From NCBI RefSeq assembly GCF_028867935.1, contig NZ_JAPQNS010000007.1:186001-250000 (forward strand): a DNA stretch of 64,000 nt, in the 5' to 3' direction. The notes beneath the pieces were generated by a model that was not told the origin of the DNA, did no database searches, and worked only from the letters and a program-made list of their open reading frames with translations. Every line of letters begins with the position of its first letter. Positions within the stretch are counted from its first letter, which is position 1. The position numbers and the translations under genes are program-made. This document shows positions 7-16,796 of this stretch, in pieces. The DNA comes from Flavobacterium sp. SUN052. GTDB lineage: Bacteria; Bacteroidota; Bacteroidia; Flavobacteriales; Flavobacteriaceae.

Positions 7-2193
7 ATTTCAATACCTGACGGTACGATTGAGAGTTTCAGCGAATATGTGCTCCGCGATCTCCGCATAGTTATTTTTATACCCGAAGGTACGATTCAGA
101 CCACCCACTTTCTCGCAACCAGCGAACCCGACAATCGTATTTCAATACCCGACGGTGCGAGTCAGACAAGGTTTAGGTTTTCAATCGGGAAATCGTCTTC
201 TATATTTCAATACCCGGAGGTACGATTCGGACTCGGACTCGCAGACAATGTAAATCTGCTCAGCGTTATTTCAATACCAGAAGGTGCGAGTCATACTATG
301 AAGGGGCGTATTTTCGCATTGACGAAAGCAACGAATTTCAATACCCGACGGTGCGATTCAGACAAGCGACAAGGGACGTCAGGCAAACTTCGCCTTCTAC
401 TTTCAATACCCGAAGGTGCGAGTCAAACCATACGCACAGATGGCGGGGATGGCTACTGCAAACGATTTCAATACTCGACGGTGCGATTGTGCCACGCTCT
501 TGGCCGTCAATTGCCCATTACCCTCTAATAATTCCAATACCCGACGGTGCGATTCAGACTCTCGACATTCGCCCGAAAGCTCCTTGCCCCCGCTGATTTC
601 AATACCCGAAGGTGCGAGTCAGACCATCAAGAAAAGCCAACTAAAAGGCGTTCTTGCGTTATTTCAATACCTGAAGGTGCGATTCAGACACTCGTTAACT
701 GAGCCAACAGCTGTGTTCATCGACACATTTCAATACCCAAAGGTGCGATTCAGAGGCTTAGTTCCCATTCCGTTTCCATATCCTTTATGCAATTTCAATA
801 CCCGACGGTGCGAATCAGGCCTAAAACTTACGCGTTTCGATGTAGTGAGCCTCGCTATTTCAATACCCGACGGTGCGATTAAGACCTTATTGTCCCAATA
901 AATAAAGTGCTTGTAGCCTTTGTTTCAATACCCGAAGGTGCGATTCAGACCTTAGACGAGTGGGGAAAGTCCCGCTTTCTTGGTTTATTTCAATACCAGA
1001 AGGTTCGATTTTGACGCTTTACGAACGTTGTAAACCACCCCCAATCTACGTCATTTCAATACCCGACGGTGCGATTCAGGCCCTACCTCAAGCCAAACCA
1101 TTTCTGGTGGTAGGCAATCTTTCATTACCCGACGTTGCGATTCAGACAGGCAGGCACCCTCTACTACATGTACGATGTGGTGGCATTTCAATACCCGAAG
1201 GTGCGATTTAGGCCCGGTCATCCAAGTAGCCCTTGTGGGCATTACTACCATTTCCATACCTGACGGTGCGATTCAGAATCCTGCGCACAGATGGCGGGGA
1301 TGGCCACTGCAAGCGATTTCAATACCCAAGGTGCGATTCAGACCGTTCGTTCGGCCCCTAGGTTACTTCAAAAAATACGAATTCCAATACCCGAAGATGC
1401 GATTCAGACTTGGCCGAGAAAATGGTAAGCCGGGTGTAACGTTCATATTTCAATACCCGACGGTACGAGTCAGACCACTCCCACCGGACCCGCTTTAGGA
1501 ACCGGAATTGGATTTCAATACCCGTAGGTACAATTTAGACTGGTAGCAAAAGGCGATGGCAACCAAGTGTCTCAAAAATTTCAATACCCGAAGGTGTGAT
1601 TCAGACCCCAAACTTCACGCTCGCCAAGAAACACTACAACCGTTTCAATACACGCAGGTGCGAGTCAGACAATCGCCATCGATACCAACATCGGGCGTGG
1701 TGTTGTAATTTCAATACCTAACGGTGCGAGTCAGACAGAAGATGGAACTGAGCGGTTTGCTGTCGGCTATTAATTTCAATACCCGAAGATGCGAGTCAGA
1801 CTTGATGTGTACATAGTGGTGTTTGCTCCTCCTTACCTATTTCAATACCCGAAGGTGCGATTCAGACATGCAGTGGAACCCCAACGAAGCGGGTAACTGG
1901 ACATTTCAATACCCGAAGGTGCGATTCAGACCGGTTTTGGCAAGATCAAGATGCCGAACGCCAAAGAATTTCAATACCCAAAGGTGCGATTCAGACGCAG
2001 CGGACGGAACGGGCGAGATGCCGACCCTGTAATTTCCATACCCGAAGATGTGATTCAGACCTTTCCCGGCCTTGGACAGATGCCAGCTTCCTCAATTTTT
2101 TCAATACCCGAAGGTGCGAGTCAAACGTAGGGTACGTATAGGAAAACTCATGCTTGTGTCCCTCTTTTCAATACCCGGAGGTGCAAGTTAACC
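7..2193 (-). CRISPR. CRISPR array, 34 degenerate 29-bp repeats
   Basis: Thirty-four 29-bp repeats recur every 64-66 bp with unique 35-37 bp spacers; the first full repeat starts at 7 and the last at 2165. The window opens inside a spacer, so the array may continue to the left. In plus sense the consensus begins ATTTCAATACCCGAAGG and ends TGCGATTCAGAC. Read on the minus strand it gives 11 nt, a 10-nt hairpin ACC-UUCG-GGU, then an 8-nt ATTGAAAT tail that matches the usual Cas6-generated 5' handle. Repeats vary strongly: as read by eye, only those at 1839 and 1903 are identical. Starts include 7, 73, 139, 204, 268, 335, 400, 465, 531, 596, 661, 727, 792, 857, 922, 987, 1053, 1119, 1185, 1250, 1316 (one base short), 1381, 1447, 1512, 1578, 1642, 1708, 1773, 1839, 1903, 1968, 2032, 2098 and 2165. 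The minus orientation rests on the handle, the cas operon direction and a promoter at 2223-2253. Confidence 0.95.
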
Positions 2194-2222
2194 CCAACAT
2201 TATTATCTCGAAAAAGAGCCTT

Positions 2223-2253
2223 CAAACGTAACAGAGCCAGACTACCCTGACAA
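2223..2253 (-). promoter_or_regulatory. Predicted array promoter in the CRISPR leader
   Basis: On the minus strand a TTG (2253-2251), a 20-nt spacer and TACGTTTG (2230-2223) match the Bacteroidota -33/-7 promoter (TTTG, 19-21 nt, TAnnTTTG). The start of transcription would fall near 2216, about 23 nt before the first repeat at 2193. This is the only such match noticed between the array and cas7 and it supports minus-strand transcription of the array. Confidence 0.55.
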
Positions 2254-2400
2254 GAACAGATACTACAAATCGTCGGCCCACGGTAAAGTAAAACCCCGCA
2301 GGCCAACGATTTGTGGTATGATCCAAGACACTTCTGATCAACTGCATAATCAGCAATAACGCAGACCATTATGTCAAAGAACGGAAGCTGATGCAATTCA

Positions 2401-2426
2401 CCGGCCTCTACATGAATAGAGGCCGG
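2401..2426. other. Perfect hairpin between cas7 and the CRISPR leader
   Basis: CCGGCCTCTA (2401-2410) and TAGAGGCCGG (2417-2426) form a 10-bp stem with a 6-nt loop, 12 bp after the cas7 stop codon. It is GC-rich at its base and could end the cas transcript, but no U-run follows on the minus strand. The rest of 2194-2438 holds only the predicted leader promoter. Confidence 0.6.
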
Positions 2427-2438
2427 GTGTTGTCATCA

Positions 2439-3479
2439 TTACTGCTCGTAATCATAGGCTGACATCATTTCGATCAGCTTTTCTTTGGCCTGATCTACCG
2501 CATCCGCAGAACCACTAACGCCCGGTATTGAGCCTTTTGCGGCCAGCGATACAAACAACTCCACACCATCGATTGGCTCAATGACTGGCACGGCCCGTTG
2601 TGTATTCTCTTCGCTTAAATCAGCCCGAATAGCTCCGGCGATCCGGCTGGCATTGTTGCTGATAGCCACCGCCAGCATCGTTTGTGGGCTGTATGTCCGG
2701 GCCTGATTACTGGTAATATGCCAGTCGACCAGGGCAGATGCCAGGGCCGGAATAAGTTCAGCCCGACGCGCAGCCGGAGCCACAAGGCGTTCTCCATTTG
2801 GTGAGGCAACCCAGCCCCCGTCACGCAGAATCTTAAGACGATCTTCGGTCAATTCAGGTTCGTGCTGATTCACCGAGACGCTGAATAATCGGTTCAGATC
2901 AATGGCCACATCGAACACAAACAGACCCGTTGTCCGACTGTTTTCAGGAATCCAGTGCCGACGAGGTAACGTTCGCTGTCGGCTGGTCAGAAAATCATTA
3001 ATTTGCCCGGCGCTCATTTCTTCTCCGGCGGCATTCAATACCCGAACCGGGTGTTTGTCGGGGCGGTCGCTACGGTCGAATGTCAGGTTCTCGCTATTCA
3101 TGCTTACCAGCAGCGGATGCAACGGCCGCATGGCAGAGATAGATAATGGACTACGACGCTTCAAAATCACTACACCTGGTTGTGCCCGCATCCAGCCACC
3201 AATAAGTTGGTCCGCATAGGCTGGGTCGCAGGGTGACCACGGCTCTTTATTACTTAACTCTAACTTGGCATTCACCTCGTAGTTGAACGTGATTGGTGCC
3301 CGGTCTTCGCTTAGCTCATCGGCCAGTAAGTCCAGCACAGACCGTTTTACCTGTTGTCCGCTGGAGTACGCAACCCTCCGGTTAAAAGTAGGATCGTAGT
3401 ATGTTTTCTGCCCATCCTGAACGGCAAAAACGGTGTGTTCGGCGATGCGCAGACCGCGCAGATATATATAAGGTTTCAT
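2439..3479 (-). CDS. cas7: Cas7-like Cascade backbone protein
   Basis: This 346-residue protein is the last gene of the cas operon and lies next to the array leader. The start YIYLRGLRIAEHTVFAV and the later SGQQVKRSVLDLL stretch (about residues 39-51) resemble the RAMP-fold core of Cas7 proteins, several copies of which coat the crRNA in a type I effector. It does not look like Csh2 or DevR, so the subtype is uncertain. It starts 21 bp after the cas8-like stop, in line with translation from the same mRNA. The call rests on weak sequence resemblance plus a strong position argument (cas6-cas5-cas3-cas8-cas7). Confidence 0.75.
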   Translation of the reverse strand: MKPYIYLRGLRIAEHTVFAVQDGQKTYYDPTFNRRVAYSSGQQVKRSVLDLLADELSEDRAPITFNYEVNAKLELSNKEPWSPCDPAYADQLIGGWMRAQPGVVILKRRSPLSISAMRPLHPLLVSMNSENLTFDRSDRPDKHPVRVLNAAGEEMSAGQINDFLTSRQRTLPRRHWIPENSRTTGLFVFDVAIDLNRLFSVSVNQHEPELTEDRLKILRDGGWVASPNGERLVAPAARRAELIPALASALVDWHITSNQARTYSPQTMLAVAISNNASRIAGAIRADLSEENTQRAVPVIEPIDGVELFVSLAAKGSIPGVSGSADAVDQAKEKLIEMMSAYDYEQ

Positions 3480-3500: not shown

Positions 3501-4835
3501 TTAAGATTTGGCTTGAGCAACCGCGTATTTGAGTTTTAAAAGGGCCATAAATAGCGGAAAGTCGGTAGCGGGCATCCGAATGATTGTATCCCCGATTTCA
3601 TCGAATAATTCGGCCTGTTCGGGAGACGCTTCTACAAAAGCAGCCATTCGCTCAATGAGTTGTCGGCGTTGACCTGATTCCAACAAATCGGCCACTGCAT
3701 TCCGGTTCACTTTCTTTCCGCGTTGCGATGTATCGGCACCAGCCTGGGTCAGTACGGTCGCGATTCGCTGAGTCAGGGTTAAGAGTTGTTGATTGTTTAG
3801 CATGGCAATAATCCAGGTTTGGTAAATAGCGTAGGTAATTCGGAGGGGTTCATCATTGTCTTTGGGCACTTTAAATGGTTTACCCGGACCTCTTACTCCG
3901 GGCATGTACTCGCGCAGGCTGGCTGGTTCTAAGGCCTTTAAACCGATAGCGCCCAACTCGCAGGCTTTCTGAAACCCCAGTTCAGTACTATAGAGATTGT
4001 CTAAAGCGTCTTCCTTCAGATTTCCCTGTAAGGCAAAAAGCTGACGGTACAAATCGCGCTCAACAGAAACAATCTCAGGTAGCCGAACCTGAATAAATCC
4101 AACCGTCGTATTCCCGGTAGTCCCTAATGAGTAAGCATACGTGATTAATTGTCGGGATGGTAGTTTTCGAGCCAGCGAGAAGATTACCTTGACCCACTTT
4201 TGCGTTTTTAGGCTGGCCACACCGGTAGTTTTATCGGTATCAACATCGGGTTGACGCGCTGCAAACGGGTAAGCCGGGTCGTATCTACGGGCAAAAGCAG
4301 TCGTGATCCACCAGCCATTCCAGGTGTTAATCTGATGGGGCTTAAGATTGGGCGTAGCCGTTATATAGGTTCGATACATCTGCCAGCCGTCGTAGAGAGC
4401 CAGTAGCACCTCATCGGCATCAACCAGTATATTGAGTCGGCTCCCAACTCCAACGCCTAGCGCATCGCCAATCCAGGAAGCATAAACTTCCTCAACCGAA
4501 ATCGGCAGTTTCATGTCGGTTACCTGTCCAGACGTGCTGGCCGTGGACATTGCGGCTGCTCCGCCCAGAAAGAAAGATCCGTCTGGTGGCTCATTTTTAA
4601 TTCGATGATGCTGCTTGGCTAACTCCTCTTCGAGAACAGCCGTCGTTATTGGTCTTTTCCCTTTTTGCTTGGAAGCCTGATCAAATTTTGAATTGCTGAC
4701 CCAGTGCAAAAAGCGATCAGGTGTGTAGAACAAGGGAAAATAAACCTCATCGAAAAACTCTTGAACGGTGCGGTTCGTCTGGTCGCGGACGTTGATCAAA
4801 TCGACCAATCGTCGGCCAATATAAGCGGTGTACAT
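3501..4835 (-). CDS. cas8: Cas8-like large subunit of a type I effector
   Basis: A 444-residue protein between cas3 and cas7, where type I operons carry the large subunit that finds the PAM. The open frame runs 61 codons further upstream, but those codons overlap cas3 and read like its shadow. The ATG at 4835, one base after the cas3 stop, is the natural start. No zinc-finger cysteine clusters are visible, and it is not obviously Csh1 or Cst1. The C-terminal 100 residues are predicted helical (RQLIERMAAFVEAS, FPLFMALLKLKYAVAQ) and begin with a Met at 3803, which could allow separate translation of a Cas11-like small subunit, as happens in several type I subtypes. Function is inferred mainly from position. 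Confidence 0.65.
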   Translation of the reverse strand: MYTAYIGRRLVDLINVRDQTNRTVQEFFDEVYFPLFYTPDRFLHWVSNSKFDQASKQKGKRPITTAVLEEELAKQHHRIKNEPPDGSFFLGGAAAMSTASTSGQVTDMKLPISVEEVYASWIGDALGVGVGSRLNILVDADEVLLALYDGWQMYRTYITATPNLKPHQINTWNGWWITTAFARRYDPAYPFAARQPDVDTDKTTGVASLKTQKWVKVIFSLARKLPSRQLITYAYSLGTTGNTTVGFIQVRLPEIVSVERDLYRQLFALQGNLKEDALDNLYSTELGFQKACELGAIGLKALEPASLREYMPGVRGPGKPFKVPKDNDEPLRITYAIYQTWIIAMLNNQQLLTLTQRIATVLTQAGADTSQRGKKVNRNAVADLLESGQRRQLIERMAAFVEASPEQAELFDEIGDTIIRMPATDFPLFMALLKLKYAVAQAKS

Positions 4836-4836
4836 A

Positions 4837-7029
4837 TCACAAAAAGTGGGTAAGAGAGTTTGACAGAGAATTAGCTGAAACTGGCAATTGTAACCCCAGC
4901 GGTATACCACCTGAATTATACAGCGAGTCACTGACAACGAACGGATAGCTCCCCGTTTCGAGCCGGGGCCAACTGCCCGAAAACCGCGCAACAGACCGCC
5001 AGGGAACCGGAATCTCAAGCTCTAAGCGCGTAGCACCGAATCGTTTGATGTACGTCTCCCGGTCAGATTCAAGAATACAAACAGCTCCCTCAATTTCTAA
5101 GGCATCAATAAGCACCGACTTTGGCCGGTGGCATAACTCGCGTAGTGGAGCTGTTTGGCCGGTAGCCAGATGTACATCAATGGACGGTACAGCAACCTCA
5201 GCATAGACTTCGTTAATAAGCCGTTGAAGTTCGGTTTCGCGTAACAACCCATCGGGTAGTAAGTCGAAACTTCGCCTGACCACATCAGCATCGTAAGGGC
5301 GAATATCTTTGTCTGATTGCGCTGGTGCTATTACATGAACGGGCTTGTAAGTGCCAATGGTTTGTTCCGAGCGTCGGCGATGAATACGCCCAAAGCGCTG
5401 TATCAGACTATCCAATGGAGCCGCATCGGTCACCAACCGGTCGAATGATATATCTAAGCTGACCTCAACAACCTGAGTAGCTATCACAATACACGGTCCT
5501 TGGCTTTGGTCATACACGCTTATTTGACTTTCCAATTCGGCCCGGTCGCACCGCCGATACCGACTGTGCACCAGCAGAACGGGTACGTCTGGAAACTGAC
5601 TTTTCGCCCACAAATACCGTTTCTGCGCCAATTTCACCTGATTGGCAACAAATAAAACTCGTTCTCCAGCAGCTAAAGCATCGGCAATGACCCGTCGGGC
5701 GGTTAGTTCATCATCAACTTTCCTAACCTCGTGCCGATTGAATTTGGTCAGTATTCGTTTGCCAAAACTCACCTTGTACACGCTCCGCCGACCACCCAAT
5801 GCCTCCATAAGCCGTTCTGTTAAAGCATCAGGAATAGTTGCCGTGCCTATGTGTACGCGGCAGCCCAGCCGAACCAAGGCCTTGACTAATTCGAGTGTCA
5901 TAGCCCTGGCCAGATTATCGTACACGTGAACTTCGTCCAGAATGACATCACAACCAGCCACATCTAAAGCAGCCGCTTCGTGACCGCTAGTACCGAAAAT
6001 AATGGCTGCTAACTGGTGCGGAGTAGTGATCTTGATGCTCGCCCCCGGATTACGCTGCCGAAATAGTTCTTCCTCTGTTGTCTTCCCGTTTTCGGTACGA
6101 ATCTGAATTCGGGAAGCTGCGTGGACCCGTCGAATATCCGTTTGTTGGTCTATTGGCAGTGGGTGGCCATTTTTCTGGTTCAGATCACGATTTAATCGGA
6201 CAAACATGGCATTGATAGATGCCTGGAATGGCAGCGTGTAAACCACCCGGCCACGACACCGACGCAGGAGAAAATCGGTTTTCCCCGAACCTGTCGGAGC
6301 GATCACAAACGTATGTCGGCTACGATGTTTGGCCCGTACTAATGACAATGGATGCAGATTAGAGGTCCGGCTATAGTAGTTGAGGTTTGGATTCGTATAA
6401 AAACCGGCGATCAGGGCACTTGCCTCGTGCATATACTCCGAAGCAAAATGGTCGGCACTCATCAATAGCCCCCGCCATCTTGACCACCCCACCGGTCGCG
6501 TATCACAGTAATCAAGGGCAAAGTTGAATGCTTCGCGCGCTTCTGTCCGTGTGATCGAGCGAGGTGTAATTTTAAACGCAAGCAACAGCGGCTGCAGCTG
6601 CACTGACCACGTTTCCAAGTCTTCAGCGTGGCGGTCAAACACAGCATCGGCCCCAATCCAGTCTAAAGCTAGATCGACCAGTCCCCGCTTTCTTACATCG
6701 GCCGACACTGATTTGTGGTGAGCAGCTACCATCTCAACCAACACTGGCCAGTCAGCTTTATCGAACAAAGGCAGGAAGAGCAGCGAAGAGATTTCGTGGC
6801 GATGTGGGTCAGACTGTTGCCGTTCCGTATCACTCACTTCTCCTCGTATAGTTCGTTGAAAAAAAGGATGGGCTTTGCCTAAGTCGTGTAAGATGGCTCC
6901 TAACCGGGCGAGCCGTGTATTGAATCCATATACCCGCGCCATTTTCAGAATTGTATCCCGAACATGCCGCGTGTGTTGCTGCAATGTCAGGCCGCCTTGT
7001 TCGGGGCTTTTTGCGTACAGTTCCATCAT
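4837..7029 (-). CDS. cas3: Cas3 HD nuclease-helicase
   Basis: A 730-residue Cas3 that unwinds and degrades target DNA after Cascade binding. The N-terminal HD nuclease shows H19, H48-D49 in ILHDLGK, an HRHE near 77 and a HH pair in AAHHKS near 109. SF2 helicase motifs follow: APTGSGKT (about 240-247), DEVHVYD (about 360), GTATIPDAL, and QRFGRIHRR (about 545). All metal-binding and ATPase motifs appear intact, so the enzyme should be active. The start overlaps the cas5 stop by 4 bp (ATGA) and its stop lies one base before the cas8-like start, so translation is tightly coupled across the operon. Confidence 0.95.
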   Translation of the reverse strand: MMELYAKSPEQGGLTLQQHTRHVRDTILKMARVYGFNTRLARLGAILHDLGKAHPFFQRTIRGEVSDTERQQSDPHRHEISSLLFLPLFDKADWPVLVEMVAAHHKSVSADVRKRGLVDLALDWIGADAVFDRHAEDLETWSVQLQPLLLAFKITPRSITRTEAREAFNFALDYCDTRPVGWSRWRGLLMSADHFASEYMHEASALIAGFYTNPNLNYYSRTSNLHPLSLVRAKHRSRHTFVIAPTGSGKTDFLLRRCRGRVVYTLPFQASINAMFVRLNRDLNQKNGHPLPIDQQTDIRRVHAASRIQIRTENGKTTEEELFRQRNPGASIKITTPHQLAAIIFGTSGHEAAALDVAGCDVILDEVHVYDNLARAMTLELVKALVRLGCRVHIGTATIPDALTERLMEALGGRRSVYKVSFGKRILTKFNRHEVRKVDDELTARRVIADALAAGERVLFVANQVKLAQKRYLWAKSQFPDVPVLLVHSRYRRCDRAELESQISVYDQSQGPCIVIATQVVEVSLDISFDRLVTDAAPLDSLIQRFGRIHRRRSEQTIGTYKPVHVIAPAQSDKDIRPYDADVVRRSFDLLPDGLLRETELQRLINEVYAEVAVPSIDVHLATGQTAPLRELCHRPKSVLIDALEIEGAVCILESDRETYIKRFGATRLELEIPVPWRSVARFSGSWPRLETGSYPFVVSDSLYNSGGIPLGLQLPVSANSLSNSLTHFL

Positions 7030-7592
7030 TCGAACGGCTGTACGCCAACGGGCGTACCAACAATATGAAGCGTACCGTACATCGGCTGGTTATCCCGAAA
7101 CCGGTCATAGCCAACCATAATGGCCGCTGGCCCCTGCCCAAACTCTAACTCAAAACCAGGCAACAGCTCAAACTCGGTGGCCGACAAGCGTTTAATCACT
7201 CTATCGGGCAACAAAATATCTTCATTGCGACAGAGACAAACGTGCTGTTCGGCTGCTCGTTCCGCATCTTCTTGTTTGGCAAAAGCCAGCGTGAGTACAG
7301 GTTCGAGCATCACACCACGCGTTAAAATGGATTGCTCACGAGTAGCTCGTCGTTTCTTAGTCTCAATCACAAACGCCCGTGATTGAGTGCGTTCCTGCTG
7401 TAAGTCGATTTTAGCGTAGGTGAGCCGATAGCGCAGAATAGCCGTGACGCCTAATTTCTGCCGGATGCCTTCGATAATACTTGGTGTTACAAACTGCTGA
7501 CTAAATGTACGCTCGTCGCGAACAGCTGTCCAGGGTTTGATGTAGCCGAACGGTCCCGTATACCGGACAATGTAATAGTGTTCCTCGCTCAT
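7026..7592 (-). CDS. cas5: Cas5-like Cascade subunit
   Basis: A 188-residue protein with an N-terminal YTGPFGYIKPWTAVRDERT stretch, which resembles the start of Cas5 RAMP proteins where an aromatic/Gly motif leads into the first RRM fold. Cas5 caps the 5' handle of the crRNA and contacts Cas8. Length is near the lower end for the family. It follows cas6 by 15 bp and overlaps cas3 by 4 bp. It is not close to textbook I-B or I-C Cas5 sequences, so the identification combines partial motif similarity with operon position. Confidence 0.75.
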   Translation of the reverse strand: MSEEHYYIVRYTGPFGYIKPWTAVRDERTFSQQFVTPSIIEGIRQKLGVTAILRYRLTYAKIDLQQERTQSRAFVIETKKRRATREQSILTRGVMLEPVLTLAFAKQEDAERAAEQHVCLCRNEDILLPDRVIKRLSATEFELLPGFELEFGQGPAAIMVGYDRFRDNQPMYGTLHIVGTPVGVQPFE

Positions 7593-7607: not shown

Positions 7608-8279
7608 TTAGCGTAATGCACCAAAACCTGAACCTGTCAAATCGCCGATACCAGCCGTCCAGGCAAAGTATTGAATATCAGGTGTACCTTCAATAATAAC
7701 CGGACATTCACTGCCCCGGTGATGAGTGCCCTTTATGGTATTTTTTCGGGTTCGGGCCTTTACATAGCTTCGATCAAAAGCCAACTGCACATCAAGATCC
7801 TTACCTGTAAAATTGGCAGCTTGCAGTTTGCGCCGGAATGACAAGGTTAGGGCTTCATCAACTATTGGGTCGTCCCAAAGCAAGTAAGCCCGTGACCCAT
7901 CCGCGCGTTTTTGACGAACCAGAATGGACGATCCATCGGTTTGAAACTGGTGTTTCTGGCCGAAAGCGGGGGGCTCTACTTCCCTGATTTCAATGATGTC
8001 CATGCCAAATGCCATGGTTGGCTGTTCCAACATACCTTTCAGCAATTGCCGAGCGGCAGTATCATCATAAAATGAAATGTTCCAAGTGGTTCCTCGTGGA
8101 AACTTTAATGTGTCTTTTCTGCTTTCACCACCCCGCAACCAACCAAAACTATATAAGCTTGGTCCGTCGTGTTGGTCGTTGTTAGGCCCAAGCCATTTAT
8201 GAATGGCCCCCGTCAGACAATGCAGATGATCGAACGGAACCGGCTGGGTATTCGGGGTTAGTTGTAGTTGAAGGCGCAT
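7608..8279 (-). CDS. cas6: Cas6 crRNA endoribonuclease
   Basis: A 223-residue Cas6 that would cut the array transcript in each repeat to leave the 8-nt ATTGAAAT handle. The C-terminal Gly-rich loop GIGDLTGSGFGALR is the family signature (the GxGxxxxxGFG pattern), and His20 or His27 in FDHLHCLTGAIHKWLG is the candidate catalytic residue. The frame allows a start ten codons upstream (8309), but MRLQLQLTPN at 8279 gives the usual Cas6 beginning. It is the first cas gene after the WYL regulator (81 bp gap) and lies 15 bp before cas5. Confidence 0.88.
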   Translation of the reverse strand: MRLQLQLTPNTQPVPFDHLHCLTGAIHKWLGPNNDQHDGPSLYSFGWLRGGESRKDTLKFPRGTTWNISFYDDTAARQLLKGMLEQPTMAFGMDIIEIREVEPPAFGQKHQFQTDGSSILVRQKRADGSRAYLLWDDPIVDEALTLSFRRKLQAANFTGKDLDVQLAFDRSYVKARTRKNTIKGTHHRGSECPVIIEGTPDIQYFAWTAGIGDLTGSGFGALR

Positions 8280-8360
8280 AGTTTTTTGCGTTTCGATATG
8301 GCAAAGCAAGCCTGCTACACCCTCAGAATTCTAGGGAGCAGCAGGGCTGGGCGATTATTT

Positions 8361-9302
8361 TTAAAGATTTTTTACGGATTCGTAGAAAGAAGCTGCTTTT
8401 ACGATTTGAGTAGCTATTGCATCACGTAACGCTAGCGGTTCCAATACCTCTACCTGCTTACCGTAGGACAGGATTTCGCGCTTCAGTTCGGTGTTGACTA
8501 TTACCCGTATCGCTATAGTCAGGGATGTGATGGTTTCAGCCACAATTTCCTGGCTGTGATGCAGCGGCAAAGCCTTCACATACTCGGCCTCGGGTTGGGC
8601 AAAACGCAACACAATAGGCTCAACGGGCGCGCCGGGCGGGGCCGTAACCCCAATAACGTGCTGCCGGTTAGCCCGGTAGTCGATACCCCGCTTGGGTTGC
8701 ATGGCGTGCGTAGTCAGCGTTAGATTACTGATTCGGTCAAGGCCAAACGTGCGGACACCTTGCTGGTTCAGGTCATACCCATCCAGATACCAGCGATTTT
8801 TGTATTCTACCAGTAAGCCCGGCTCTACCAGTCGCTGTGTATCGGAACCGTCGACATAGTTCTGATAGCAAAAGGCCACTGCCACCCCGCGTTGCAGCGC
8901 ATTCCAGAGCGGAGCCAGCCAGTCAAGTCCCCGAAACTGCGCGGCTGCCCCGCCAGCATCGTGTTCCAGTTGCATATACCGACCCGCCAACCGCCCCGAT
9001 GATGTCAGGAATTCCAGTCGTTCGCGCCGTTCGAGCAGACGTACAAACGTTTGGAAATCGTCGAGGTCTTCGTCGGCGGCTAGATCCAGAAAATAGCCTC
9101 TTTGGGCGCGGTCGTAGGTGATGGTGATGCTGTAGTCGGCCCGAATATCACGAAGGTCATTCTCAACTGTTTTGGTTGATATAGATTCAATGTCATGATC
9201 GCGCAGTGATTCGGTCAGTTTTTGAAGCGATGGGTAACGGTGCGGGGTGTCAAGGCAACGAATAATATGGAGGTGTCGACGAAGTTTAGCAGAATCTTTC
9301 AC
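8361..9302 (-). CDS. WYL-domain transcriptional regulator
   Basis: A 313-residue protein with an N-terminal winged helix (residues 1-60, RRHLHIIRCLDTPHRYPS then STKTVENDLRDI) and a central WYL domain (about 120-210, with YKNRWYLDGYDL in place of the WYL core), followed by the usual C-terminal extension. WYL proteins bind nucleic-acid-like ligands and often sit beside defence genes. It is the first gene of the minus-strand cas block, so it probably controls cas expression. No TAnnTTTG promoter was found in the 244-bp gap (9303-9546) to the divergent CE15 gene; that gap otherwise shows only AT-rich DNA. Confidence 0.88.
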   Translation of the reverse strand: MKDSAKLRRHLHIIRCLDTPHRYPSLQKLTESLRDHDIESISTKTVENDLRDIRADYSITITYDRAQRGYFLDLAADEDLDDFQTFVRLLERRERLEFLTSSGRLAGRYMQLEHDAGGAAAQFRGLDWLAPLWNALQRGVAVAFCYQNYVDGSDTQRLVEPGLLVEYKNRWYLDGYDLNQQGVRTFGLDRISNLTLTTHAMQPKRGIDYRANRQHVIGVTAPPGAPVEPIVLRFAQPEAEYVKALPLHHSQEIVAETITSLTIAIRVIVNTELKREILSYGKQVEVLEPLALRDAIATQIVKAASFYESVKNL

Positions 9303-9546
9303 GAGTGTGGTTTCTTGTTTTGTACCCTCAAATGGCGCTTACTACCTGCGAACAGAGTAGTGGTAAAATCGGGTGAGTTTATGAAAAATTTTTCTTTTTC
9401 TACGTTTATGTTTCCTCAATACCAGTTAACGGTTGCATTTAAGTGTCACACCCTGTCTGTTCCAACAGGATAGCTTACGGGCTATGTAATTGTAAATCAC
9501 AGGTAGTTGCCCAGGAGACCGGTCTTTATCAGGTAATCCTAAACTG

Positions 9547-10839
9547 ATGAAAAGACTCCTAACCTCTACCTTGCTGATGGCGCTCTCTTGGGTGGGAATG
9601 GCTCAGCAACAATCCCCTAACCGGCCCACGTTGGTGGCGGGAATTCCCGTTAATTACCAGGAAGACTCAGTGGGTTCCTATACCCTTCCCGATTTGCTGC
9701 GGTGCGCTGACGGTCAGCCGGTTACAAGTGCGAAAGTTTGGACACAGAAACGGCGTCCCGAACTGCTCAAACTCGTGGCAGAGACGCAGTTTGGAAAAAT
9801 GCCCCCTCGTCCAACTGGCATGAGCTTTCGGGTGACGGATCAGGGAACACCCGCTTTTAATGGCAAGGCAATTCGCAAACAGGTGACCGTGTATTTCACC
9901 CGCGATACCGCCAACTACAAGATGCACCTGCTGGTCTACCTGCCTCAGGCCGTTAAGCAACCAGCGCCTTTGTTGTTGAACATTTCCTTCTCTGCCTACA
10001 ATCAGATCATCGACGATACCGGCTTACGCGTGGGCGAGATCTGGAACCGCGAGGGCCAAAAAATAAAAGCAGACAAACCGGGGCCGTTCCCCAAAATGAA
10101 TGTGGAGCAGTTTCTGGATGCCGGTATTGGCTTTGCGACCGTGTATTACGGCGATATTGAGCCAGACTTCAAGGACGGTATTCGTTATGGTATTCGGGGG
10201 CATTATTTAAAACCAGGTCAAACTGAACCCGCTCCCGACGAATGGGGGGCTATTTCGGCCTGGGCATGGGGGCTCAGTCGGGCAATGGATTATTTTGAAA
10301 CGGATAAACAGATCGACGCCAAACGCATTGCCCTCCAGGGCGCTTCCCGCTTAGGCAAGGCCGTTTTGTGGGCTGGCATCAATGACACCCGTTTTAAGGT
10401 AGTCGTTGCCAGCATTTCGGGCGAAGGCGGTGCCGCCCTCAGTCGGCGTAATTTTGGAGAAACTGTCAAACACATTACCGATTCAACCCGGTATCAGTAT
10501 CAGTTTGCCAAACGCTATCATACCTATAGCGACAAGCTCAACAGTTTACCCATCGATGGACACACCCTGGTGGCATTGATAGCCCCCCGGCCGTTACTAC
10601 TCCAAACGGGCAGCACCGATTACTGGTCAGACCCAAAGGGTGAGTTCCTGTCGGCAGTAGCAGCGGCACCCGTCTACAAACTCTTCGGTGAAAAAGGCCC
10701 GGAAACGTCCGTTATGCCAGCCGCCAATGATACTTCTCTATTGATGAATCACCTGGGGTATTTTATGCACGAAGGTGGTCATTCGGTTTTACCCACCGAC
10801 TGGTCGCATATCATTGCCTACCTGAATAAATACCTTTGA
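9547..10839 (+). CDS. CE15-like glucuronoyl esterase
   Basis: A 430-residue secreted alpha/beta hydrolase of the type that cleaves esters between 4-O-methyl-glucuronic acid and lignin or xylan. The signal peptide covers residues 1-19 (cleavage after GMA). The nucleophile motif GASRLGK near residue 265 corresponds to GCSRxGK of carbohydrate esterase family 15, and HEGGHSV near 410 holds the catalytic His. Family members from Bacteroidota are often annotated as acetyl xylan esterase. A hybrid sensor-regulator begins 34 bp downstream and may control it or share its transcript. Confidence 0.85.
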   Translation: MKRLLTSTLLMALSWVGMAQQQSPNRPTLVAGIPVNYQEDSVGSYTLPDLLRCADGQPVTSAKVWTQKRRPELLKLVAETQFGKMPPRPTGMSFRVTDQGTPAFNGKAIRKQVTVYFTRDTANYKMHLLVYLPQAVKQPAPLLLNISFSAYNQIIDDTGLRVGEIWNREGQKIKADKPGPFPKMNVEQFLDAGIGFATVYYGDIEPDFKDGIRYGIRGHYLKPGQTEPAPDEWGAISAWAWGLSRAMDYFETDKQIDAKRIALQGASRLGKAVLWAGINDTRFKVVVASISGEGGAALSRRNFGETVKHITDSTRYQYQFAKRYHTYSDKLNSLPIDGHTLVALIAPRPLLLQTGSTDYWSDPKGEFLSAVAAAPVYKLFGEKGPETSVMPAANDTSLLMNHLGYFMHEGGHSVLPTDWSHIIAYLNKYL

Positions 10840-10873: not shown

Positions 10874-13800
10874 ATGCGTTGGTTAGTATGGATACTTCTG
10901 CTTTTGCAAGTCCCCGCGGTTACTGCCTGGGCACAAAAAATGGCCTTGCCACAGCCGAATGTAATTACGGAAGAGCAGGGCTTACCCCAGGCATTTGTGC
11001 TGGACATTGTTCAGGACAAACAGGGGTTTATCTGGATGGCTACCCGTGATGGGCTTTGTCGTTACGATGGCCAGCAGATTAAGGTGTTCCGCTCGTTGCC
11101 AAGTCGGCCGGGCAAGCCAGCTAGCTCATTACTGGGCTTAACTAATCTTCAGGTTGATAATCAGGGTATACTCTGGGTGTCGACTGATGAAGGCGGGGTG
11201 AGCCGGTTCGACCCGATGTCCGAAACGGTAGTCCCCTTAGCCACGTCGGCGGATAATCGGCAATTACTAAAAACCCAATCGCTGGCCCCCTATTTTGTTG
11301 ATCAACAGCAGCGGTTATGGCTGATAACCCCCAAAACGGGCTTAGTATATATCGACCTTAAAACGAACCGATTACAATCTATTCCCCAAAGTTACGGAAC
11401 AGTAAGTGCCCCTGAGAAGTCTCCGATAACCCGGTTTGTTCAGGGTCAGGATGGCCGGGTCTGGCTGGCGACCGACTATTCACTCTCGTATTTTGATGAG
11501 AAGACCCAGCGGATACAGGCCTTCCCCTGGCCAATCCGCCCGCCCGAAGCAGGGGCAAGAATTGGCGGCTTGTTTGTCCGGCCCAATGGGGATTTACTGG
11601 TTTGTTTCCAACACCATTTGATGGTTATTCAGCCCAAATCGGGCCATTCTCATGTATATCGACTCCCAGTCACCGGTAATGAATGGTGGGGAGTCAACTT
11701 TGCCGTCGATCAGCAGGGGGCCGTGTATTTTGATCAGAATACCGTTCTGTACCGATTTACTGACCAGGATGGTCCCCAGGTCGTAGCCGAGTGGAAGCAG
11801 GTGGGCGAGCAATGTGCCAGTTTGATGGTTGATGCCTCGAATGTACTTTGGGTCGGCACCGATGGAGCGGGCGTCCGGACGTACAACTTACGGGCGAATC
11901 CGTTCCAGATTGCCCCGTACCGACGGTCGTTTCGCTTTGATTTGCTTACCGATGGTTGGTTGGGAGCGCCTTTGTCCGCTTTCCCCAAACGGAACGATCT
12001 GGCAACTTTAGATAATTACAATTTCCGGTCGACCGTGGCTGACCCAACAACGCTGTGGTACTCCATAGGTGGTCCACTAATTAACCGGGTGGACACTAAA
12101 CAGGGTCGTGTAGACGAAGTGCCGCTACCGCTGCCGATACCCAATCGAGCCGAAGATTATAAGCCCTGTCCGTTGACTACCGATCCGACTGGGCAGGTCT
12201 GGGCCTTTTACAATGGCCAAATCTGGCAATATAATCAGCCACAGCAAACGTGGCAGGCGCTTCCCTACCCCATTCCCGAACGGTATACCGGTAGGGTTCA
12301 ATTGATACTGGCAGACAAGCACTTCTTTTGGCTGGCTACTGAAGCGAATGGCCTGGTTCGGGTAGCGCGATCAACGGGGCATTTACGCAACTACCGTCAT
12401 CAGGCAAGCGATTCGACCTCCCTGAGTAGTAATGCCCTCTTTAGTATGGCTGCTGACCCCTTGCAACCGGATCGACTCTGGATCGGGACCTTTGGCGAAG
12501 GCGTGTGCGTCTTTGATAAATCCACCGGGCGATGCCGACGCTTGACCACCGCCAACGGCTTACCCAATCAGGTTATCTATTCGCTTATCCCTGATCAACG
12601 GGGGTATATCTGGATGGGTACGAATCAGGGCATCTGCCAGATCAATACCCGCACACTGGCTACGCAAACTTACAGGCAACAGGATGGCTTGCTGGCCAAT
12701 GAGTTCAACCGGTTCCATTATTTCCGGCGGCCCGACGGCCTTATGGTGATGGGCGGGGTGAAAGGAATTACGGCCTTCTATCCGGATCAGATTCGGGCAG
12801 ATTCCTACCAGCCACGAACCGAACTAACGGGCCTGCAATTGAGCAACACCCCCCTTGAGCCGGGAGCCAACTCGCCCCTGGGTTGGCTCCCGGTCCAGGC
12901 GCATCAGCAACTGACCTTGTCTCACGACCAAAACTTTCTGACGATCAGCTTTGCCGCTTTACAGTTTAACGCTCCCAACAAAAATCGCTATCGGTATCAA
13001 CTGGTTGGGCTAAACCCGACCTGGGTTGAAACTAGACAACCCCTGGCGATGTATACCGATTTACGACCGGGCCACTATGTACTCCGGCTCAATGCCACCA
13101 ACGCATCGGGAGTCTGGAGTCCTCATATCCGCACCTTAACCATCCTTATCCGACCACCCTTCTGGCTAACCTGGTGGGCAATAACGGCGTACGCGCTGTT
13201 GGCAGGCGGTTTGCTGTACGCGGCTGTGCAAGCCTATGTCCGTCGCCTGCGAATGCGCCAGGCTATGGTTTGGCAACAAAAGCAACTCGAACTGAATAGG
13301 CAGGAGAAAGCTCAGTTCGAAGCGGTCGATGCAATGAAAACGCGGTTTTTTGCCAACATTACGCACGAGTTCCGTACCCCGTTAACGCTCATTCTTTCGC
13401 CCGCTCAGCAACTGCTGAACCAGATACAAGACCAACAGCAGCGCCAACGCCTGACGCTCATTGAGGCCAATGCCCATCAGTTGCTTCAGCTGATTAATCA
13501 ACTCATGGAGTTGGCCAAGCTGGAAGCCAGCGTGATGCCGGTTCAGGAATCGATAGGCGATGTTACGGCCTGTGTGAACGAATGGATCGGGTTGTTTGCC
13601 CATCAGGCGGAAGAGAAAGACATTCAGGTGACCCTACAGAGCCAACTAAGTAGTGACTACTGGTTCGACGTGGGCAAGTTCGAGCGGATAGTCCAAAACC
13701 TGCTGGCTAATGCGCTGAAGTTCATGTCTACAGATGGTCAGGAGCTTCGGCGTATTGCGCTCACTCTTGAGCCAAGGACCAGTGATAACCGACCTGGCAT

Positions 13801-14881
13801 CAGGTTCCGAATTTCTGATTCGGGCACTGGGATTGCGGCTCAGCATCTACCCCATATTTTTGATCGTTTCTACCAGGCCAACGAGGTTGATAATCAGGAA
13901 CAGTTCAGTCAGGCGCAGTCGGGAACCGGCATTGGTTTGGCCCTCGTGAAGGAATTAGTCGACCTTCAGGGAGGTTCTATTCAGGTCGATAGCGAGTTAG
14001 GGGTCGGGACAACGTTTACAGTCTGGTTACCCTATCGCCCGGCGGTGACCACGCAACCAGCAGAGGCAGCACTAATCTACAATGATACTCCGCTTTCTGC
14101 GTCAACCGCTCAGTTGTTAGTGATTGAAGACAATCCCGATCTGGCCCATCTGATTTGTCAAAGTTTACCGGCTTCTTACCAGGTCCATCGGGCCGAGAAC
14201 GGTACTGTTGGGCTAAACATGGCGTTTGAATTAATGCCCGATCTGATCATCAGCGACGTAATGATGCCCGAACTCGACGGCTTCACGCTCTGCCGGCAAC
14301 TGAAAGATGATCCGCGAACGAGTCATATTCCGGTTCTGTTGCTGACGGCTAAAACATCGGTCGAAAGTCGGCTGACGGGACTTTCGCAAGGGGCCGACGA
14401 TTACCTCACCAAACCGTTTCTGATTGCCGAACTTCAGCTGAGGGTACGCAATTTACTGGACAGGCAGCGCCGGATTCAGGAGCGAATTCAGGCTAGTCTT
14501 ACCCAGCCTGGTTCGCCAGAACAGGAACAAACCACAACCGAAGACGATCCGTTTTTACGACAACTGTACGACTTGCTCGAAGCCAACCTCGACGATTCGA
14601 CCTTTGGCGTTACGGAGTTGACCACGGCTACGGTGATGAGCCGCACCAGTTTTTACCGCAAAGTCAAAGCGTTAACGGGCCTCACAACGAGTGAAGTAAT
14701 TCGCCTGTACCGCCTGAAACGGGCAGCCCATATGCTTCAACAGGGTTGTTCGGTGGCTGAAACAGCCTACCGGGTGGGTTTTGAAACGCCCTCGCACTTT
14801 AGCAAGGTTTTCCGGGATCAGTACCAGATGACCCCCACACAATTCGTATCTACACCCAAAAATGGCGTTAATTTCATGTAA
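10874..14881 (+). CDS. Hybrid two-component sensor/AraC regulator
   Basis: A 1335-residue one-protein signalling system. After a signal peptide ending in AWAQ, the periplasmic part has two-component propeller repeats (QGFIWMATRDGLCRYDGQ, QRGYIWMGTNQGICQ) and a Y_Y_Y domain. One membrane helix lies near 765-790. The cytoplasm carries HisKA with ITHEFRTP (His near 828), HATPase with NLLANALKF and GTGIGLAL, a receiver with phospho-Asp in DLIISDVMMPELDG (about 1126) and an AraC HTH (about 1255-1335). Such proteins sense oligosaccharides and switch on polysaccharide genes. ATG at 10874 is preferred to the in-frame TTG at 10868. The neighbouring CE15 gene points to a plant glucuronoxylan-type signal. 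Confidence 0.93.
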   Translation: MRWLVWILLLLQVPAVTAWAQKMALPQPNVITEEQGLPQAFVLDIVQDKQGFIWMATRDGLCRYDGQQIKVFRSLPSRPGKPASSLLGLTNLQVDNQGILWVSTDEGGVSRFDPMSETVVPLATSADNRQLLKTQSLAPYFVDQQQRLWLITPKTGLVYIDLKTNRLQSIPQSYGTVSAPEKSPITRFVQGQDGRVWLATDYSLSYFDEKTQRIQAFPWPIRPPEAGARIGGLFVRPNGDLLVCFQHHLMVIQPKSGHSHVYRLPVTGNEWWGVNFAVDQQGAVYFDQNTVLYRFTDQDGPQVVAEWKQVGEQCASLMVDASNVLWVGTDGAGVRTYNLRANPFQIAPYRRSFRFDLLTDGWLGAPLSAFPKRNDLATLDNYNFRSTVADPTTLWYSIGGPLINRVDTKQGRVDEVPLPLPIPNRAEDYKPCPLTTDPTGQVWAFYNGQIWQYNQPQQTWQALPYPIPERYTGRVQLILADKHFFWLATEANGLVRVARSTGHLRNYRHQASDSTSLSSNALFSMAADPLQPDRLWIGTFGEGVCVFDKSTGRCRRLTTANGLPNQVIYSLIPDQRGYIWMGTNQGICQINTRTLATQTYRQQDGLLANEFNRFHYFRRPDGLMVMGGVKGITAFYPDQIRADSYQPRTELTGLQLSNTPLEPGANSPLGWLPVQAHQQLTLSHDQNFLTISFAALQFNAPNKNRYRYQLVGLNPTWVETRQPLAMYTDLRPGHYVLRLNATNASGVWSPHIRTLTILIRPPFWLTWWAITAYALLAGGLLYAAVQAYVRRLRMRQAMVWQQKQLELNRQEKAQFEAVDAMKTRFFANITHEFRTPLTLILSPAQQLLNQIQDQQQRQRLTLIEANAHQLLQLINQLMELAKLEASVMPVQESIGDVTACVNEWIGLFAHQAEEKDIQVTLQSQLSSDYWFDVGKFERIVQNLLANALKFMSTDGQELRRIALTLEPRTSDNRPGIRFRISDSGTGIAAQHLPHIFDRFYQANEVDNQEQFSQAQSGTGIGLALVKELVDLQGGSIQVDSELGVGTTFTVWLPYRPAVTTQPAEAALIYNDTPLSASTAQLLVIEDNPDLAHLICQSLPASYQVHRAENGTVGLNMAFELMPDLIISDVMMPELDGFTLCRQLKDDPRTSHIPVLLLTAKTSVESRLTGLSQGADDYLTKPFLIAELQLRVRNLLDRQRRIQERIQASLTQPGSPEQEQTTTEDDPFLRQLYDLLEANLDDSTFGVTELTTATVMSRTSFYRKVKALTGLTTSEVIRLYRLKRAAHMLQQGCSVAETAYRVGFETPSHFSKVFRDQYQMTPTQFVSTPKNGVNFM

Positions 14882-14939
14882 TGAAACATACACGATAGTC
14901 ATTGAAACACCAGCGACAGCCCCCGGTAGGCATTGATGG

Positions 14940-14947
14940 TAGCTTTG
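14940..14947 (+). promoter_or_regulatory. TAnnTTTG -7 box
   Basis: TAGCTTTG lies 25 bp before the start of the beta-helix gene and matches the Bacteroidota -7 element. No TTG lies at the expected 19-21 nt upstream spacing, so this is a candidate only. Confidence 0.35.
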
Positions 14948-14972
14948 TTCAGCACTTTTTCACTGCCAAATT

Positions 14973-16796
14973 ATGCTGTCAATCTACCGACTCTCTATCC
15001 TGTTTCTTGCTCTGTGCCTGGGCGAATTAACGCTGCCAGCCTTCGCTCAATCTACCACCCGCTACGTCTCAACCACCGGCACCAACTCAGTGCCCGCCAG
15101 CGCTACCTCCTGGGCCACCTCTACCTCTATGTTGCAGGAGACCATTAACGTCAGCGGTACGGGCGATCAGGTCTGGATAGCCACCGGTATTTATACGCCT
15201 ACCTCTAATACAGCCGAACCCCAGGTTTCCTTTCACATGAGAAATGACGTGACAATTTATGGTGGCTTCGTTGGTAACGAATCCAGCCTGAGCCAACGAC
15301 CCACGCTGAACCCGCCGGCTGGTCAGCATTCGGGAACGATTTTGAGTGGTGATATCGACCACGATGGCACGTTTAACCGAAACAGCTATCACGTTTTTCG
15401 TCAGTCAGGTTTAAACAGTACTGCCGTGATGGATGGCGTTGTGATTACGGCGGCCTACTCCAGCGACGGGACTGGAGAGAATAAGCGGGGAGCCGGTATG
15501 GTGAACCTGGGCAGTAGCCCGACACTGACCAACTGCACCTTCCAAAGCAATACAACGCTCTCCGATGGCGGAGCTATGTATAACAAAGGGGGAACGCCCA
15601 AATTAACGAACTGTGTGTTCGACAATAACTATGGTGAAAGGGGCGGTGCCATAACATGGTCACTCGGTGGCGGTATAGAAATGACCTACTGTGTACTACA
15701 AAACAACAAGGCAAGCCAGGAGGGCGGAGCCTTTTATGTTTTGGGAGGTACTGCTACATTGACGAACTGTTTGTTGCAGAATAATCATGCAGACGGTAAG
15801 GGTGGTGTTGCCTACGGCACCCCTACCTTTTTGGCGACGAATTGTGTGTTTCGGACTAATACTACGGCTGAGGGCGGAGTCTTTTGGTTTTACAGAAACC
15901 GTACTACCCTGACTAATTGCACCGTCCAGGGAAATCACTCAACAGGTTCGGGCGGGTTCATGTATAATTGGGATGGGGCTGTAACTGTCCTGACAAATTC
16001 TATTCTCTGGGACAATGGTGATAATAAGGGGGAGATCTTCTATAATAACAACACTCCCCCGCTTGCTACGGCCACCTATTGTTTATTCGATGCGGCTGCG
16101 TTTATCAGTGCTCCTACTAACCTCTCCACCTCCATTTCGCCCTTTGTCAGCGCTACATCCTTGCAACTCAACAATTGCTCGCCAGCCATCGACGCGGGTG
16201 ACCCGGCTACCTCATCAGCCACAGTTGGTACTACTGATCTGGCGGGTAATGATCGCTTCTATAATGCGAGGGTGGATATAGGGGCTTACGAATCCCAAAG
16301 TGGTTTGAAAGTTGCTATTGTCGGCGAAACGTTTGTGGGAGGGCCCGTTTGTTCCGGCGTTTCTGTCAACCCCAGAGTCACTGTAACGGGTGCCGTACTT
16401 AGTTTCCAATGGTTCAAAAACGGCACGGCCTTAGCTGGGCAAACGACGGCCGAATTATCACTAACAAACCTGCAAACAAACGACGATGGCAGTTATGCAG
16501 TGGTAGTGACGGGGGCTTGCGGCTCAGTCACCTCTACCGCCTTTACGATAACGGTACAACCCGCTCCTGATGTCTCGCTGGTACTGCTCAACAACAGGAC
16601 GGTATTGCAGGTACAAAGTGGTGTTCTATACGAACGGTTGATTGTAGCTGATCGGGTAAACGGCTACGAGATTCGGCAAACGGACAGCAGTACCACCGGC
16701 TTTTTCCCAGTGAACCGGCCGGGGCCATTTCGTATGACTGTGACGGGCGCTAACGGGTGTAAGACGGTGGTTGATAGCAGTACGGATGCCCTGTAG
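14973..16796 (+). CDS. Secreted beta-helix and Ig-like protein
   Basis: A 607-residue exported protein with signal peptide ending in AFAQ (residue 26). Residues about 30-380 are a right-handed parallel beta-helix with repeated LTNCTF/LTNCVF and GGAMYN/GGAFYV units, as in polymorphic outer-membrane and pectate-lyase-like proteins. The segment DIGAYESQ ends the helix, and one Ig-like module follows (about 450-530, ending YAVVVTGACGS). No catalytic motif or clear type IX sorting tail is visible. It may bind or process a surface polysaccharide, or serve as an adhesin; the role is unknown. Confidence 0.8.
   Translation: MLSIYRLSILFLALCLGELTLPAFAQSTTRYVSTTGTNSVPASATSWATSTSMLQETINVSGTGDQVWIATGIYTPTSNTAEPQVSFHMRNDVTIYGGFVGNESSLSQRPTLNPPAGQHSGTILSGDIDHDGTFNRNSYHVFRQSGLNSTAVMDGVVITAAYSSDGTGENKRGAGMVNLGSSPTLTNCTFQSNTTLSDGGAMYNKGGTPKLTNCVFDNNYGERGGAITWSLGGGIEMTYCVLQNNKASQEGGAFYVLGGTATLTNCLLQNNHADGKGGVAYGTPTFLATNCVFRTNTTAEGGVFWFYRNRTTLTNCTVQGNHSTGSGGFMYNWDGAVTVLTNSILWDNGDNKGEIFYNNNTPPLATATYCLFDAAAFISAPTNLSTSISPFVSATSLQLNNCSPAIDAGDPATSSATVGTTDLAGNDRFYNARVDIGAYESQSGLKVAIVGETFVGGPVCSGVSVNPRVTVTGAVLSFQWFKNGTALAGQTTAELSLTNLQTNDDGSYAVVVTGACGSVTSTAFTITVQPAPDVSLVLLNNRTVLQVQSGVLYERLIVADRVNGYEIRQTDSSTTGFFPVNRPGPFRMTVTGANGCKTVVDSSTDAL

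Follow-up and report, generated by a model that had tools for sequence, protein, structure and literature searches.

The CRISPR locus and its gene content

The left edge of the window, that is, the whole stretch of 64,000 nucleotides analysed here (C36:186001-250000 of a genome of 8.1 Mb that is 99.99% complete and comprises 38 contigs), cuts through a CRISPR array that starts 2.5 kb further left at C36:183451 (L010:3451). In full, the array spans C36:183451-188193 and has 73 repeats, between which lie 72 spacers of 35-40 nt. The features of the window that concern it are as follows:

7..2193, minus strand: part of the CRISPR array nearest the leader (right side), with 34 of the 73 repeats of 29 nt and spacers of 35-38 nt; the crRNA sense is the minus strand
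2165..2193, minus strand: repeat 0, adjacent to the leader, with 7 of 29 bases off the consensus, the maximum among all 73
2194..2438, minus strand: array leader, retained, directly after cas7; a like leader follows cas2 in the nearest relatives
2260..2319, minus strand: leader inverted repeat with arms at 2260-2283 and 2296-2319 (24 nt, 83% complementary, predicted RNA fold -35.6 kcal/mol)
2401..2426, minus strand: perfect 10-nt inverted repeat just after cas7
2439..3479, minus strand: cas7b, 346 aa (PADLOC Cas7b, E=3.9e-158)
3501..5018, minus strand: cas8b, 505 aa as longest ORF (PADLOC Cas8b, E=4.8e-131)
4837..7029, minus strand: cas3, HD and helicase, with HD at residue 48, GSGKT at 247 and DEVH at 365 intact (PADLOC Cas3b)
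7026..7592, minus strand: cas5b, 188 aa (PADLOC Cas5b, E=5.5e-84)
7608..8309, minus strand: cas6b, 233 aa, predicted pre-crRNA endonuclease (PF01881, E=2.2e-9; PADLOC Cas6b, E=2.3e-71)
8361..9302, minus strand: WYL-domain protein, possible regulator, upstream of cas6 (PF13280, E=7.9e-16; PADLOC WYL)

The consensus repeat, read on the minus strand, is GTCTGAATCGCACCTTCGGGTATTGAAAT. The repeats are regularly spaced and separated by unrelated spacers of near-constant length, as in other CRISPR arrays, but they are not near-identical: 63 of the 73 are distinct, as are 33 of the 34 in the window, where the copies at 1839-1867 and 1903-1931 form the single identical pair that a sequence-only reading of this DNA had noticed. 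One window repeat, ending at 1343, has a one-base deletion in the loop. Among the arrays of cas1-bearing relatives (n=61) the median of the mean change is 0. Repeat 0 is the most changed of all 73 copies, and the leader-proximal repeat is therefore not a fresh copy. Leader-distal repeats degenerate with age in ordinary arrays, according to two reports (PMC4869251, PMC2886076), whereas here the whole array is affected, the leader end included, and no gradient is seen.

The five cas genes form a complete type I-B interference set (PADLOC Cas7b, Cas8b, Cas3b, Cas5b and Cas6b) in the order cas6-cas5-cas3-cas8-cas7, running from 8309 to 2439 on the minus strand, and all five are open. The longest ORF of cas8b overlaps cas3, so that its real start probably lies later. 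Relatives of the Cas7b protein number 4134 at E<=1e-10 among 8000 scored candidates, P0001-P0006 standing at 81-88%, while those of Cas6b align along its length and have a similar C-terminal glycine-rich segment. Cas6 is matched here by PF01881, and the Cas6 profile PF10040 has no match in the genome; with NCBIfam, the cas6 match falls under its cut-off and cas5, cas7 and cas8 are unmatched. Synonymous sites are saturated, which makes dN/dS unusable.

The adaptation module of type I-B systems (cas4-cas1-cas2) is absent from the locus, where tblastn with the Cas1, Cas2 and Cas4 proteins of relatives found none. Profiles of Cas1 and Cas2, which were positive in 9/14 and 7/14 control genomes, have no match in the 8.1-Mb, 99.99%-complete genome. 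CRISPR-associated transposons lack Cas3 and are linked to Tn7-like genes. The present locus does not fall into this class, as Cas3 is present with its HD and helicase motifs, and no integrase- or transposase-type Pfam domain was matched among the nine proteins scanned around the array. Interference genes without cas1, cas2 and cas4 also occur in type I-B systems of haloarchaeal proviruses, where uptake is attributed to a second system whose repeats are near-identical (PMC12596717); here, in contrast, there is no Cas1 in the genome and the repeats are diverse. Similarly, an array and interference genes without cas1-cas2 are described for type I-E systems of Streptomycetaceae with tnsB-tnsC (PMC8730458), while the nine proteins scanned here gave no transposase-type Pfam match.

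The leader inverted repeat ends 66 nt before repeat 0. A similar inverted repeat precedes the array in seven near relatives that carry cas1, at a distance of 62 nt (L062 and L189), 64 nt (L173, L174 and L065) or 66 nt (L066 and L177). Most others among the 16 relatives whose leaders were tested have one at 56-78 nt, while the leaders of L067 and L068 lack it at this position. The inverted-repeat score is not above those of 15 shuffles for four of the seven near relatives (L173, L174, L065 and L066), so that the case for the leader rests on like sequence at a like distance. The leader match supports the direction in which the array is read, and it fits an event in which only the adaptation block was lost. 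Across this type I-B group the distance of the inverted repeat from the first repeat is fixed (62-66 nt), and the inverted repeat is longer in the locus without Cas1-Cas2.

The gene order is shared with Fibrisoma limi (L062) and its kin, Bacteroidota with type I-B systems in which the leader inverted repeat lies 62-66 nt before the array and the consensus repeat differs in 2 of 29 bases. In L062 and most other relatives, however, cas4-cas1-cas2 lie between cas7 and the leader, and the repeats of L062 are identical in 119 out of 119 cases in the stretch examined, whereas those of the present array have drifted. Three mutually related proteins encoded to the left of the array (L009:4796-6427, 8341-9714 and 13281-14993) contain A-G-rich repeated segments and, towards the C-terminus, a common SKKERFLPLNH stretch; judged by eye, they look like surface adhesins.

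Site-specific change in the repeats

Type I-B Cas6 proteins cut 8 nt before the end of the repeat, which leaves the AUUGAAAN handle on the crRNA. The repeats described here fit such a cut, with ATTGAAA mostly retained and the last base free (changed in 6 of 34 repeats in the window and 13 of 73 in the whole array). The sequence-only reading had estimated by eye about 6 changes in 204 stem positions, 25 in 136 loop positions and 7 in 238 inner handle positions, with frequent change of the outer bases; recounting of the 34 window repeats gave 6/204, 26/136 and 7/238, together with 43/374 for the 5' outer part. Across all 73 aligned repeats the stem and loop rates are unequal, as had been predicted, with 18/438 stem and 49/292 loop bases changed (Fisher P=1.2e-8). 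When the hot position 15 is left out, the loop (24/219) still exceeds the stem (P=0.0011). The handle is likewise less changed (14/511) than the 5' outer part (90/803; P=6.5e-9). Stem and handle stay below the 5' part in both base classes over the 73 repeats, with 12/438 handle against 39/365 5' changes at A/T sites alone and 16/292 stem against 51/438 5' changes at G/C sites alone. The variability of each position in this array is correlated with that among the family repeats, a set of 55 distinct repeats from 57 loci (Spearman 0.57, P=0.003; 0.65 without position 7).

The six-base ACC-NNNN-GGU stem proposed from the window holds in general for its two inner pairs. Pair 13-20 is C-G in 54 of the 55 distinct repeats of relatives, and pair 14-19 covaries (C-G 46, T-A 5, A-T 2, T-G 2); the outer pair 12-21, A-U here, is A-A in 46 of the 55, so the general stem consists of two pairs rather than three. 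The three stem changes that had been said to preserve G-U pairing were confirmed; each is a C13>T change, and the repeats concerned start at 1381, 1773 and 2032. Over all 73 repeats, 9 of the 18 stem changes retain a G-U pair, with no clear excess, and such retention is suggestive at most. Stem-breaking changes are found in repeats 8, 16, 26, 51, 54, 58, 62, 66 and 70. Two positions stand out among the 73 copies: position 7 changed from A to C 19 times and position 15 from T to G in 25 of 25 changes, the two being unlinked and unclustered. These hot spots are too frequent and one-sided for simple drift. With both positions excluded, the mutation spectrum is led by C>T (32) and G>A (28).

On average, neighbouring repeats have 0.292 variant alleles in common; the value for shuffled repeats is 0.273 (P=0.40). 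Repeat change shows no gradient between the leader and the far end (P=0.33). Most repeat changes therefore postdate the building of the array, the repeats having changed singly. Serial copying of a mutating master repeat was rejected, since neighbours share alleles no more than shuffled repeats do; the sole allele that looks inherited is T16C in repeats 60-63 (adjacency P=0.015 at that position). Descent from two founder repeats (A7/C7 and T15/G15) was also rejected, as linkage is absent (P=0.41) and there are no runs. Repeat 14 with spacer 15 (window 1214-1278) and repeat 42 with spacer 43 (L010:5383-5447) combine near-identical spacers with preceding repeats that have three rare alleles in common, and are the one clear trace of internal duplication. 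As the origin of all the spacer pairs described below, internal duplication was rejected, as it fits only the pair of spacers 15 and 43.

Repeat drift and local cas1 in related loci

Related loci were collected by scanning genome contigs with a Cas7 alignment, the best 80 of 210 relatives being used. In the F. limi family, Cas7 was found in 21 of 222 genomes, which added 18 stretches, two of them repeats of loci already in the set (identical Cas7). The comparison used 72 parsed arrays downstream of cas7; seven were dropped, among them L093, whose array is real, homogeneous and accompanied by cas1, and the distal L075 array, which lies upstream. Arrays with more than half of their repeats off the consensus, here termed drifted, make up 7 of the 11 without local cas1 and 1 of the 61 with it (Fisher P=1.7e-6). 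Supported branches of a quick Cas7 tree force three state changes, which may be read as three losses, one at the present locus, one in L099 and L116, and one in L083, L084, L085 and L102. In this tree the sister group of the present locus consists of Spirosoma and Fibrisoma loci that bear cas1 (SH-aLRT 95). The seven drifted loci are not independent, and among six supported independent pairs about three behave as predicted, none in the opposite direction and three are ties (sign test P=0.25-0.5).

Four arrays, in L095, L106, L112 and L129, are homogeneous despite having no local cas1, which is to be explained by recent loss or by unseen helpers. In L112 (Salinivenus lutea) the leader is kept and cas4-cas1-cas2 are gone from the locus, but 10 near-identical repeats are found, and adaptation may have been lost recently in this strain. 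L095 has just a cas4 fragment before its array. Conversely, the array of L180 bears cas1 yet has drifted (4/7 repeats), and those of L094 and L066 have done so in part, with 41% and 20% variant repeats, respectively. A genome-wide check for Cas1 covering 13 loci found none in seven (L083, L095, L099, L103, L106, L116 and L129), and it was present in the other six (L062, L084, L085, L090, L102 and L112); the genomes are mostly metagenome-assembled and may be incomplete. Three of the drifted relatives, L084, L085 and L102, have Cas1 elsewhere in the genome, so that a distant Cas1 is not enough alone to keep an array fresh.

The site pattern of the drifted relatives resembles that of the present array. 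In the 41 parsed repeats of L085, L102 and L099 the four inner stem bases are changed in 1/164 cases and handle bases 22-28 in 13/287, counts favoured by a parser that requires a recognisable handle and stem, while their loops are distinct in 9/18, 7/14 and 8/9 cases, respectively, with three lengths over the set. The orthologous arrays of L083, L084 and L085, all without local cas1, have their leader-end spacers in common and differ further in by missing spacers. Between L083 and L085 the arrays are 99.4% identical over 485 bases and the cas region 94.5%; the identical tract enters the end of cas7, so that recent exchange is indistinguishable from selection. The repeat pattern gave scattered single or double matches in a few of 299 family and 199 genus genomes and no array elsewhere, a result that says little as the grouping itself looks wrong. 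The assigned genus and family are full of genomes of 2-6 Mb, whereas the Cas7 tree places this 8.1-Mb genome with Spirosoma and Fibrisoma; the grouping may be wrong, or the locus may have been transferred.

Spacers and the state of the array

Fourteen of the 72 spacers form seven homologous pairs, the lowest of which scores 20 and the next candidate 6.5, with the remaining pairs at chance level. In the best of six reading frames, with the null treated alike, these pairs show 18 synonymous and 10 nonsynonymous codons (one to a stop) against 12.2 and 15.8 under the null (P=0.0025), and given this synonymous excess they resemble sequences captured separately from related phage genes. The seven pairs contain 34 differences in total, or about 7% per site if all were drift. 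Repeat positions 1-5 have changed at 11.8% per site (43/365); drift at that rate predicts about 60 differences (P=5e-5), drift at the whole-repeat average of 8.7% about 44 (P=0.057) and drift at 7% about 35. Sites picked as loose within the repeats that flank the paired spacers are changed in 17-20% of cases, a figure raised by the choice of sites. The spacers thus appear less altered than unconstrained repeat sites, as would be expected if selection acted on whole crRNAs, and the memory may therefore still be in use; the selection of similar pairs biases this rate towards low change, and the gap in scores suggests that strongly drifted pairs were seldom overlooked. The array has one weak match (E=0.4) among 50,697 phage records and none among 72,556 plasmids. 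Degenerate patterns derived from five of the seven pairs found nothing in viral_contigs, and the spacers have weak matches alone (E 0.04-0.5) to the loci of relatives.

With high probability, the locus is a type I-B system that lacks its adaptation module and has kept interference, and in which the repeats age singly under selection on crRNA processing. The sequence-only reading had already proposed that Cas6 processing is under purifying selection in repeats no longer copied from a master, and the proposal is supported by the complete set of interference genes including cas6, the lack of Cas1 and Cas2, the site rates and the other arrays without cas1. The tolerance of repeat diversity that was offered beside it is true of the loop and the outer bases, and forms part of this explanation rather than a separate one. 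Loss of cas4-cas1-cas2 would have left the interference operon, the leader and the 72-spacer array in place. Without Cas1-Cas2, the leader-side repeat would no longer be copied and the array would not turn over, leaving each repeat to mutate alone. Conservation of the handle and of the inner stem pairs would follow from the need of Cas6 to cut before AUUGAAA and of Cascade to hold the handle, with drift tolerated in the loop, in the outer 5' part and at the last base. We infer that this selection comes from Cas6 processing and interference that are still functional. A literature search limited to one library turned up no paper recognised as linking adaptation loss with repeat drift. A large-scale study of CRISPR repeat mutations has reportedly been made by Mitrofanov et al. 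(2026, microLife uqaf050). The locus combines known parts, namely interference-only systems and the decay of old repeats, in a little-described state, and novelty is claimed with care.

Selection could also have favoured the divergence itself, as unlike repeats would stop recombining and irreplaceable, functional spacers would not be deleted, with such selection adding to drift at the tolerated sites. The retention of 72 spacers without Cas1/Cas2 would suit such an effect, as decayed E. coli CRISPR arrays are reduced to few repeats (PMC2886076), and recombination between repeats is proposed as the route of spacer deletion (PMC8047081). The lower change of spacers (about 7% per site) than of outer 5' repeat sites (11-12%) points the same way, but selection on the spacers alone predicts it equally and the choice of similar pairs favours it, and the orthologous arrays of L083, L084 and L085 do differ by missing spacers. 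An advantage of divergence is on balance unlikely, though it fares best among the alternatives to adaptation loss with continued crRNA processing.

It is considerably less probable that the locus is an unused, dead relic whose contrast between stem, loop and handle arises from mutation bias, base composition or too little time. The degraded leader-side repeat, with its 7 of 29 changed bases, would be expected of a relic, as would the lack of a convincing phage or plasmid match for the array or the five spacer patterns. All five interference genes are open, however, with the Cas3 motifs intact, and the contrast persists within A/T and within G/C sites and tracks the family-wide constraint. Insertion of spacers with error-prone copying of the repeat, by an unknown integrase or by Cas1-Cas2 in trans, is more improbable still. 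Repeats look more altered than spacers, and the use of another integrase has been proposed for the type I-E loci with tnsB-tnsC that lack cas1-cas2 (PMC8730458). Copy errors would nevertheless pass to later repeats, whereas neighbours share alleles at the shuffled level (P=0.40), no repeat is more changed than the leader-side one, and neither an integrase-type Pfam domain in the nine proteins around the array nor Cas1/Cas2 in the genome was found. Although repeats are difficult to assemble, an assembly or sequencing artefact is hardly credible. Loop and outer sites change at about four times the rate of stem and handle sites, a distinction that artefacts would not make. The contig in which the array is embedded is 415 kb long and belongs to a 99.99%-complete genome, and comparable arrays are present in other genomes.

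Beyond the loss of adaptation under continued crRNA processing, the array may tentatively be viewed as a hard-wired, innate-like memory, in which the 72 spacers are used, whole crRNAs are selected and recombination within the array is hindered by repeat divergence. Bacteroidota type I-B systems would have arrived at this state several times. This further step is possible and clearly less secure than the loss itself. The leader inverted repeat would then serve expression rather than integration, and such arrays raise the question of whether a CRISPR memory can turn into guides that are fixed and inherited. Because the repeats of an array usually undergo concerted evolution, comparison can hardly distinguish bases required for uptake from those that serve crRNA processing. 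Arrays that have lost uptake and kept processing would act as natural mutagenesis screens of Cas6 and Cascade, here with 73 repeats and 63 variants in one genome, joined by several further arrays from relatives, and under a hard-wired memory the bases freed here that are near-invariant in uptake-competent relatives would be candidates for a role in integration only. In the relatives alone, the AAT motif is changed in 9/123 cases, a proportion not significantly different from that of the handle (P=0.34), and the A6-A7 changes of the present array are nearly all at position 7. Taken over the drifted arrays, A6-A7 are changed in 31/228 cases against 27/798 in the handle and are near-invariant in the family, which provides a lead that these two bases may be needed for spacer integration only.
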